A stretch of DNA of 32,393 nucleotides. Origin: a virus. The translations under genes were made by a program, and so were the position numbers. The notes under the pieces were generated by a model. The model did not search any database. It was not told the DNA's origin and saw nothing but the letters and a program-made list of their open reading frames with translations. The DNA is taken from positions 1 to 32,393 of the IMG/VR virus record IMGVR_UViG_3300009432_000026; one strand, given 5' to 3'. Each line of letters starts with the position of its first letter. The stretch's first letter is position 1. Below, one piece after another: positions 2,619 to 6,512 of the stretch.

Positions 2619-3020
2619 CTACCCTATAAATTTTGTGGTTAACCCGCCAATAATAGCAAGGGTCATTAATGTGCCTAATATTTTAGCAACAAAACCCCGT
2701 GCCTCTTTTTGGTTTGTCTTTATTTCTTCGAGTGATTGTTTGATGTGTTGTTTATCTTGCAAACTTAATTTGATATTAGTTTCATTTGCCGAAACCTTTT
2801 TACTTAAGTCATTTAATGTTTTTCGCTGTGCCTCCTGCGCTTTTTCCAATACATTCACGTTAGAAACCACCTGCGTTAATTTTACTAAGTTTTCAGAAAC
2901 ACCCTTGTTTGTTTCAATTACTACGTTCATTAACGCAGTGACCTCAGTATCTTTTAAGTTAATTTTATCAGATAGCGTGGTTATTTCACGCTGTAAGCTT
3001 GCTGCATCAATGTTAGACAT
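2619..3020 (-). CDS. Coiled-coil protein with C-terminal membrane anchor (XhlA-like?)
   Basis: 133 residues. Residues 5-105 are almost entirely helical and coiled-coil in character with little proline or aromatic content (KINLKDTEVTALMNVV, LEKAQEAQRKTLNDLSKKV, LEEIKTNQKEAR). The end is a single hydrophobic segment FVAKILGTLMTLAIIGGL (about 109-126) followed by TTKFIG. This arrangement recalls XhlA-type phage lysis-associated proteins, in which a helical domain precedes one C-terminal membrane helix. It stands between the endolysin and terminase genes, with its own promoter just upstream. A role in lysis or membrane attachment is inference; a structural role cannot be excluded. Confidence 0.6.
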   Translation of the reverse strand: MSNIDAASLQREITTLSDKINLKDTEVTALMNVVIETNKGVSENLVKLTQVVSNVNVLEKAQEAQRKTLNDLSKKVSANETNIKLSLQDKQHIKQSLEEIKTNQKEARGFVAKILGTLMTLAIIGGLTTKFIG

Positions 3021-4886: not shown

Positions 4887-4940
4887 TTAAAAAGGTATAT
4901 CGTCATCAAAATCAAAATGCTGAACCTTATCTACTTTCCC
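4887..4940 (-). other. Putative -1 programmed frameshift site and SSB acidic tail
   Basis: At 4940-4934 the minus strand reads G GGA AAG in the ssb frame, directly followed by the stop TAG (4933-4931). G GGA AAG is the slippery heptamer used in the lambda G/GT tail genes. A -1 slip there continues as VDKVQHFDFDDDIPF and stops with TAA at 4889-4887. That 15-residue extension is a textbook SSB C-terminal tip (acidic, ending in Pro-Phe). A G-rich stretch (GGTGGGGG) about 18 bases upstream could act as an internal Shine-Dalgarno stimulator, and a weak 6-bp hairpin starts ten bases downstream. The -1 frame is closed by a TAA upstream near 4957, so the shift must occur in the last few codons. A one-base deletion in the nearby AAAA run (4947-4950) would give the same picture and is the main alternative. 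Confidence 0.6.
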
Positions 4941-5383
4941 GAATGGTTTTGCCAATTACCCCCACCGTTTTGTGGTTGAAAGTTATTTTGTGGTGCTTGT
5001 TGTTGAAAGTTATTTTGTGGCGCTTGTTGTTGCTGCTGTTGCGGTTGTTGTTGCTGTTGTGGTGCTTGACCAGTATGAACATAACCCAACTTAGCATTTA
5101 ACATATCAATACTTAATACAGCGCCATTGTTACCGTTATAAGAATCAATCTTTAACTGCTCACAGCTAACTTCAATAACTGAACCTTCAACAAGGGCACT
5201 TTGATAAAATTGTATCTGACCCGGAGACTTTGCAAATATAACTGCTGAATAATTGCACCAATCATCTTGTTTAGTTTTTGGATCACGGTATTTAACACCC
5301 AACCTAATACCAAACCCGGTTGAATCTCCTGCTTGAAATTGATTTGCTGCTTTGTTTAATTTGCCGGTAATAGTTGTACTCAT
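4931..5383 (-). CDS. ssb: Single-stranded DNA-binding protein, zero-frame form
   Basis: 150 residues in the zero frame. The first 105 or so form an OB-fold-like domain (WCNYSAVIFAKSPGQIQFY, then LVEGSVIEVSCEQLKI and AVLSIDMLNAKLGYV). A low-complexity Gln/Asn/Pro linker follows, with QQQ runs and a tandem QQAPQNNFQ unit, as in bacterial SSB linkers. The frame stops at HSGK without an acidic tip. The tip (DDDIPF) is encoded immediately downstream in the -1 frame, reached through a G GGA AAG heptamer, so a 165-residue frameshift form is likely or the gene carries an indel. SSB coats single strands in replication and recombination; the tip recruits partner enzymes. It is the third gene of an operon with Erf-like and Exo-like genes. 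Confidence 0.88.
   Translation of the reverse strand: MSTTITGKLNKAANQFQAGDSTGFGIRLGVKYRDPKTKQDDWCNYSAVIFAKSPGQIQFYQSALVEGSVIEVSCEQLKIDSYNGNNGAVLSIDMLNAKLGYVHTGQAPQQQQQPQQQQQQAPQNNFQQQAPQNNFQPQNGGGNWQNHSGK
4976..5029 (-). repeat. 27-bp tandem repeat in the ssb linker
   Basis: Two copies (4976-5002 and 5003-5029) differing by a single base, each encoding a QQAPQNNFQ-like unit. Followed by CAA-rich simple repeats (5026-5063). Expected to expand or contract easily and change linker length in steps of nine residues. Confidence 0.85.
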
Positions 5384-5385
5384 TT

Positions 5386-6015
5386 TTATTCTTCCTTAAC
5401 AGTTAGTTTTTCAATTAATTCATTCATTTTATTTACAAATACATAAGCTTTTTCTTTCATGTCAGTTATAAATTCTTCATTACGATAAACCCTCTGTTCC
5501 AAATAACCAGCCTTACCACTTAATCTTGGGTCAAAGCTTACAAAATCACACCACTCGCGCCCGGTAACCCATAACTGGCATTGAATCTGCGCTTTATAAC
5601 TTGAGCTATAATCATCTGACAAAGCCCGCTTAAGCTGTGTTGTTGTGTTAGGGCATTTAATCTCTAACAATCCATCATCACCCACTAATCCGTCAGGTGA
5701 AATGCCTATAAACTCGTTATGCTCTACAAATGCAACTTCATCTATATCAAAGCGGTGGTTTCTAATAGAATAAACCGCCCTTGCCTCACCCTCCATTTCA
5801 GTACCCCAACGCATAGCATCATTCTCAAAAAACGGCTTTGATAATCCCGTCAAACGCTCAGCTATCAATTCCATCATGTAAGACTCTGCCATTTTACTTG
5901 GTGCCGTACCCCTGCCCTTAGATAGTAAATCACTAATGCGCGAGGCTGTAACCTTACCAAGACGCATTGCTAGCCATTCAGGTGAACCCTGCTCACAGGT
6001 TGTAATTATTTTCAT
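5386..6015 (-). CDS. YqaJ / lambda-Exo-type recombination exonuclease
   Basis: 209 residues. These enzymes are toroidal 5'-3' double-strand exonucleases that leave 3' tails for an annealing protein. Motifs visible in order: GSPEWLAMRLGKVTASR (N-terminal substrate motif), MRWGTEMEGEARAVY, the active-site aspartate in ISPDGLV (about 106-112), the Glu-X-Lys in LEIKCP (about 118-123) and the QIQCQLWVTG helix (about 144-153). Length matches phage lambda Exo. It starts on an ATGA overlap with the Erf-like gene and ends two bases before ssb, so annealing protein, nuclease and SSB are expressed together as a complete single-strand-annealing recombination system. Confidence 0.93.
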   Translation of the reverse strand: MKIITTCEQGSPEWLAMRLGKVTASRISDLLSKGRGTAPSKMAESYMMELIAERLTGLSKPFFENDAMRWGTEMEGEARAVYSIRNHRFDIDEVAFVEHNEFIGISPDGLVGDDGLLEIKCPNTTTQLKRALSDDYSSSYKAQIQCQLWVTGREWCDFVSFDPRLSGKAGYLEQRVYRNEEFITDMKEKAYVFVNKMNELIEKLTVKEE

Positions 6016-6512
6016 ACTAATCCTTTAATATAATTGCGGTAATCTACATCTTTTATATCAGCAAGATTGGCTAAGTTTGATTGAATAGACTTAACCCAAG
6101 CTAAGTCATCTTCATTTGGCTCACGCGGGCTTGCCGCATTACCGTCATCATCTGCACTTGGAATACCCGCTGCTGCCTGTAAACTATAACGTCTACAATA
6201 TGTAATAGCTGAACCAGCACCCTGAGCATCTTGTTTGGTTAACTGTACAGTAAAAGAACTTGATATCCACTCACCGGAATTATGCATTAGAATGGTTTCC
6301 ACACCCACTCTGCCACCATCTTCAATAGGGAATTGAATATAACTCAAGCCGTTATTGGAGAATGGCCCTTTTACCGCGTTAACTACTGACCCTAGATCAG
6401 CATATTTAGACTTAAAGAATGGGTTTTTAGCCCCTTTACTAGCGCCGCCCATTTCAGATTGCGCCACGTTCATAGCTATTGCTAAGCTTTTAATTGATGC
6501 TGATTTATTCAT
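6012..6512 (-). CDS. Erf-family single-strand annealing protein
   Basis: 166 residues, similar in layout to the P22 Erf core. Family features: MNVAQSEMGGASKGAKNPFF at the start, FKSKYADLGSVVNAVKGP, NNGLSYIQFP, VGVETILMHNSGEW and AITYCRRYSLQAAAGIP with the DDDGNAA that follows. Erf anneals complementary strands and works with the downstream exonuclease. At 166 residues it is a little shorter than P22 Erf (about 204), lacking most of the C-terminal tail. Its start overlaps the end of the 47-residue gene upstream. Confidence 0.92.
   Translation of the reverse strand: MNKSASIKSLAIAMNVAQSEMGGASKGAKNPFFKSKYADLGSVVNAVKGPFSNNGLSYIQFPIEDGGRVGVETILMHNSGEWISSSFTVQLTKQDAQGAGSAITYCRRYSLQAAAGIPSADDDGNAASPREPNEDDLAWVKSIQSNLANLADIKDVDYRNYIKGLV

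Follow-up and report, generated by a model that had tools for sequence, protein, structure and literature searches.

The window, the whole 32,393-nucleotide stretch of DNA analyzed here (IMG/VR record IMGVR_UViG_3300009432_000026), carries an ssb gene on the minus strand directly after the genes for a YqaJ/RecE-like exonuclease and an Erf annealing protein (positions 5386 to 6512), with which it forms a recombination cassette. The SSB protein matches the PHROG family phrog_44, "single strand DNA binding protein" (E = 5e-16), and has no Pfam match, PF00436 being reached by two of the loci described below (L200 and L065) but not by the window protein. The ssb ORF terminates in NGGGNWQNHSGK, its final codons are TCG GGA AAG TAG, and a C-terminal acidic tip is present only in the -1 fusion product and is absent from the zero-frame product (Table 1). 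The first-pass annotation, made from the letters alone, had described the ssb frame as ending HSGK-stop without an acidic tip, the heptamer G GGA AAG as lying in the correct phase with the stop directly after it, and a -1 slip as leading into an SSB-type tip, and translation of the minus strand agrees on each of these points. GGGAAAG occurs at two sites in the entire 32-kb window, both strands counted, and the (D)(D/E)xPF-stop signature occurs once, 36 nt from one of the two.

Table 1. Features of the window ssb gene and of its overlapping -1 extension
Feature	Position	Strand	Basis
ssb zero-frame ORF, 150 aa	4931..5383	minus	Translation: OB-fold SSB and Q-rich linker, acidic tip absent, C-terminus HSGK-stop
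OB-fold/DNA-binding part, residues 1-104	5072..5383	minus	Portion conserved among relatives (tblastn matches span residues 1-105)
Q/N/G-rich linker	4941..5071	minus	Translation; presumably disordered
Shine-Dalgarno-like GGTGGGGGT (GGGGGT), candidate 5' stimulator	4958..4966	minus	Anti-SD duplex energy -9.8 kcal/mol
Slippery heptamer G_GGA_AAG, zero-frame phase	4934..4940	minus	Sequence; 12 aligned sites share the heptamer (required by the search pattern)
Zero-frame stop TAG, immediately 3' of the heptamer	4931..4933	minus	Sequence
-1 frame extension GK-VDKVQHFDFDDDIPF-stop	4887..4940	minus	-1 translation; the fusion product would have 165 aa
Acidic tip FDFDDDIPF and stop TAA, -1 frame	4887..4916	minus	-1 translation and signature scan

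The ssb gene of IMGVR_UViG_3300022164_000264 (L038, also listed as L001) encodes a protein with 97% identity to the window SSB over residues 1 to 104 and with a different linker and tail. It ends in CCG GGA AAG TAA where the window has TAG, and its -1 frame gives GKVSGSPHYDFDDEVPF; the heptamer, the stop position, and the tail length are unchanged between the two contigs, and the choice of stop codon and a large part of the tail have diverged. The heptamer and stop, whose conservation the first-pass annotation had proposed to check, are thus kept in this relative, and the arrangement is present in ten further contigs. The -1 tails of the pair differ by 2 synonymous and 7 nonsynonymous changes, so that the pair by itself shows no codon-level selection. 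The ssb genes of two other relatives (L002 and L003), with OB domains 86% identical to that of the window, have an acidic tip in no frame nearby, and tipless phage SSBs therefore seem to exist near the window lineage. L004, L005, and the Vibrio phage relatives carry the acidic tip in frame, and among the named isolates checked (Vibrio and other phage relatives), in-frame tips predominate, some SSBs are tipless, and Vibrio phage K375 is different. Since tipless and in-frame-tip genes also occur, the GGGAAAG-stop arrangement is not universal among relatives. The first-pass annotation had counted against recoding any relatives that encode the tail in one frame without this arrangement; L004, L005, and the Vibrio phages do encode it in one frame, and because these more distant relatives lack the GGGAAAG-stop arrangement, they are read as lineage turnover rather than as a contradiction.

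IMG/VR and GTDB genomes were searched for GGGAAAG with an acidic tip downstream, and the frame of the long upstream ORF was then determined. The search patterns fixed the heptamer as GGGAAAG and left the frame of the upstream ORF free, so that the invariance of the heptamer is not evidence, and the frame test is unaffected and is evidence. A zero-frame ORF with a stop 0 to 9 nt past the heptamer and a tip in the -1 frame was found at 12 loci, namely, the window and L038, -39, -40, -44, -61, -65, -70, -193, -200, -202, and -208. At 9 of these loci the heptamer runs straight into the stop, and at the remaining 3 the stop follows within 9 nt; the codon is always TAA or TAG, and the -1 acidic tip is retained in all 12. 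All of these positives are metagenomic contigs from IMG/VR or, for L193, a Colwellia MAG, which was the one frameshifted case in the species genomes scanned. A host chromosomal trait was considered and rejected: of 393 further genomes from the Colwellia order, none has the pattern.

Judged from sequence, the same arrangement spans several unrelated ssDNA-binding protein families, and the proposed recoding of ssDNA-binding proteins has apparently evolved more than once. L200 and L065 encode E. coli-type SSBs (Pfam SSB, E = 3e-39 and 1e-37, respectively), and the window and L202, together with L044 and L208, match phrog_44 or group with it. L039 and L040 have no PHROG match and are matched by an HMM of the SSB group of the window, both being in the seed set of that HMM. 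L070 matches the gp2.5-like ssDNA-binding proteins of phrog_112, and L061 shows a weak likeness to phrog_2300. L193 encodes a small phrog_37570 protein with a predicted all-beta structure of low confidence (pLDDT of 49), so that its SSB nature rests on the gene order of its phage relatives, which lie directly behind exonuclease/recombinase genes. Three further loci are candidates only: L257 (DUF669) and L207 (phrog_862, T7-like phages) have a -1 tip after GGGAAAG and later zero-frame stops, and Curvibacter phage P26059B (L407), an isolate, combines a G_GGA_AAC in zero phase with a -1 ORF whose end is EYEDLPF. In the phrog_862 protein of Autographiviridae, represented by L207 and L407, a conserved-looking zero-frame C-terminus is overlapped by a -1 acidic xPF tip, and in Burkholderia phage Paku (L409) the tip of this protein is in frame.

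The frame of the ORF was compared with that of the tip at sites of the form NNNAAAG-T(A/G)(A/G) with a tip in the -1 frame and an immediate zero-frame stop. The two frames disagreed at 8 of 8 GGGAAAG sites and, among the matches listed, at 0 of 8 AAAAAAG sites, 0 of 1 CCC/TTT sites, and 0 of 55 sites in other AAAG-stop contexts; the Fisher probability from these immediate-stop counts, with controls that are samples among the matches listed, is approximately 1e-10. With the stop allowed within 12 nt, 11 of 13 informative GGGAAAG cases disagreed, compared with 0 of 99 for CCCAAAG in any phase among the matches listed. GGGAAAG with a +1 tip gave 2 disagreements in 22, both in non-SSB genes, and with a zero-frame tip it gave none in 14. 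Disagreement between ORF and tip frames is almost exclusive to GGGAAAG with a -1 tip. Some loci share ancestry (L044, L202, and L208), and the effective number of independent loci is therefore smaller than the counts, with several unrelated backgrounds remaining. Other slippery heptamers were rejected as equivalents, since the CCCAAAG and AAAAAAG controls combined showed frame disagreement at 0 of 107 sites among the matches listed. Disagreements in the non-SSB loci L217, L252, and L264 (with a loose tip, also L054 and L067) were treated as chance background.

Alignment of the 12 early-stop sites gave the consensus CAAGGNGGTTATCAAAATCAGCCGGGAAAGTA. Nine of the 12 loci have a strong 9-mer of Shine-Dalgarno type (-9 to -12 kcal/mol), the end of which lies 11 to 16 nt 5' of the heptamer, and L207 and L257 have one with comparable placement; in nearly all loci carrying such a 9-mer, no other site in the 180 nt upstream is stronger. 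When SD-like sites were placed at random, the observed sum was reached in 0 of 20,000 trials. L039, L061, and L070 have no well-placed SD-like site upstream of the heptamer. In the window, no site in the 180 nt upstream is stronger than GGTGGGGGT, which lies 17 nt before the heptamer, outside the 9 to 14 nt given for -1 stimulation in a 2016 review (PMC5009743), and its stimulatory strength is therefore uncertain. A search of the 70 nt downstream of the heptamer, pseudoknots aside, revealed no consistent 3' stem-loop across loci. Measurements in E. coli place G_GGA_AAG in the top three -1 motifs for efficiency (PMC4066793), and the 2016 review rates it as highly shift-prone (PMC5009743).

Selection on the -1 frame was shown in one family. 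The tails of L044 and L202 differ by 7 synonymous and 2 nonsynonymous codon changes in the -1 frame, and by 0 and 9, respectively, in the zero frame. Across L044, L208, and L202, the -1 tails vary chiefly at -1-frame third positions, and the zero-frame stop shifts (TAG, CAG TAG, and TAT TAG) but never beyond one codon.

Very probably, a programmed -1 frameshift like those of dnaX and lambda G/GT would yield tipless and tipped SSB from a single ssb mRNA. The ribosome would first translate the OB domain and linker and would then pause, held by pairing of the SD-like G-rich stretch with the 16S rRNA anti-SD and by the stop codon about to enter the A site. A fraction of the ribosomes would then slip by -1 on G_GGA_AAG, with tRNA-Gly moving to GGG and tRNA-Lys to AAA in tandem, and append VDKVQHFDFDDDIPF, and the remainder would terminate to give tipless SSB. 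We infer that tipped and tipless products are both made, as well as a ratio between them and a function for it. The infected cell would contain SSB with and without the docking tip, probably as tetramers of mixed composition, each bearing fewer than four tips. Fewer tips may limit the recruitment of host and phage partners or tune the binding mode or condensation, with ssDNA cover still ample; mostly tipless subunits could thus coat ssDNA without excess partners or set the composition of the tetramer.

A variant that is compatible with programmed frameshifting, and to which only a minor chance is given, is that the shift is a regulated switch in which RF1, tRNA-Lys charging, or the state of translation is coupled to the stage of infection, rather than a fixed ratio. 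TAA and TAG are both RF1 codons, and the proximity of such stops to the heptamer in all 12 loci fits a switch of this kind, but the later zero-frame stops in L207 and L257 do not. It is improbable that the window gene has undergone a genuine frameshift mutation in which the tip was lost, a tipless SSB was tolerated, and the -1 tail survives as a relic. Tipless SSBs do exist nearby in L002 and L003, but the -1 tail remains open and tip-like across diverged relatives, the -1-frame changes between L044 and L202 are largely synonymous, and the junction repeatedly carries this heptamer, in most cases preceded by an SD-like site.

It is more doubtful still that a base was lost by sequencing or assembly near the end of a gene that is truly in a single frame, an alternative that the first-pass annotation had itself raised. 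The window is a single metagenomic contig with an AAAA run near the junction, and one added A would join the frames through WQKPFGKVDK. This repair works in the window and fails for ten other contigs, which have different upstream sequences, so that a missing A is an insufficient explanation. In addition, the 12 contigs share the heptamer, its phase, and an early stop across differing families and upstream contexts, the stop is TAA in L038 and TAG in the window, and the CCCAAAG and AAAAAAG control sites among the matches listed do not disagree in frame. Equally slight is the chance that the fusion arises from transcriptional slippage, in which the polymerase adds or drops a base, since the longest run in GGGAAAG is three, long homopolymers are missing at most other junctions, and the phase, stop, and SD-like site are marks of ribosomal slippage; the point in its favor is an A7 run just before GGGAAAG in the gp2.5-like gene of L070 (L070:11381-11478). 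On this run, slippage by either the polymerase or the ribosome could lead into the same -1 frame as slippage on GGGAAAG.

Programmed -1 frameshifting is well known from dnaX, tail chaperones, and IS elements. The E. coli dnaX tau/gamma system (A_AAA_AAG with an SD-like stimulator and a stem-loop) likewise involves a replication gene, an X_XXA_AAG heptamer, and an upstream SD-like site, and gives a longer and a shorter product that differ by a C-terminal part, whereas ssb would use G_GGA_AAG with no clear 3' stem-loop and would add a short tail bearing the SSB docking tip. The heptamer of the lambda G/GT tail chaperone frameshift is GGGAAAG, as in ssb, and there too a fraction of the ribosomes make a C-terminal extension of a phage protein; however, the gene and function are unrelated, ssb encoding a DNA replication/recombination protein that would gain a short linear motif. 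Reversed dnaX-type versions, with the zero-frame stop directly past the shift site, are described in PMC5009743. The SSBs with an in-frame tip (E. coli SSB and those of phages L004, L005, and L041 to L043) share the OB fold, the Q/G-rich linker, and a terminal (D/E)xPF-type tip, but they carry the tip on every subunit, and in the window it lies behind a stop and a frame change. According to PMC7145534, partners of E. coli SSB dock mainly at the acidic tip, at least two tails per tetramer are required in vivo in E. coli, and fewer tails per tetramer alter cooperativity and binding mode. The tetramers of Antony et al. 2013 (as cited in PMC7145534), in which E. coli SSB was engineered to have fewer tails, are artificial, whereas in the window the number of tails would be set by natural recoding. 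In the literature searched, which consists mostly of papers outside subscription journals and includes GeneTack, PRFect, and excerpts of the 2016 review (PMC5009743), no frameshift in SSB or gp2.5 was found, in line with the first-pass annotation, which knew of no SSB controlled in this way; the case would therefore be a known recoding mechanism in an unreported gene class.

Through its tips, SSB recruits many proteins of replication and repair, and it is chiefly from engineered proteins that the number of tips per tetramer is known to matter. If the proposed frameshift is true, recoding that naturally sets the ratio of tipped to tipless subunits would open tip dosage to direct tests, phage recoding would gain a replication gene class besides the tail chaperones, and such genes would at present be annotated as tipless SSBs or hypothetical proteins. 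More broadly, it is rather likely, with less assurance than for the window gene, that phages repeatedly and independently evolved a GGGAAAG -1 frameshift that tips only a fraction of an ssDNA-binding protein, in unrelated families (E. coli-type SSB, phage SSB, gp2.5-like, and perhaps the DUF669-like and phrog_862 proteins, the latter of Autographiviridae), and that tip dosage is a general, selected control point of phage replication or recombination.

At the ssb end of L006, a tip-like ADDTPFAPVGL lies in the -1 frame and a slippery heptamer is absent; its relatives L010 and L014 carry DDDIPFAP(I/V)GL in frame, so that a mutation or an error is likely in L006. In Vibrio phage K375 (L276), the zero frame of the ssb gene from position 895 ends in ADFDDD-stop, and the +1 frame directly downstream ends in SLGIPF-stop; in L007, the corresponding ends of the ssb gene from position 3001 are FAPQQ-stop and CGIPF-stop. 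These two gene ends may represent +1 recoding or simple frameshift mutations.
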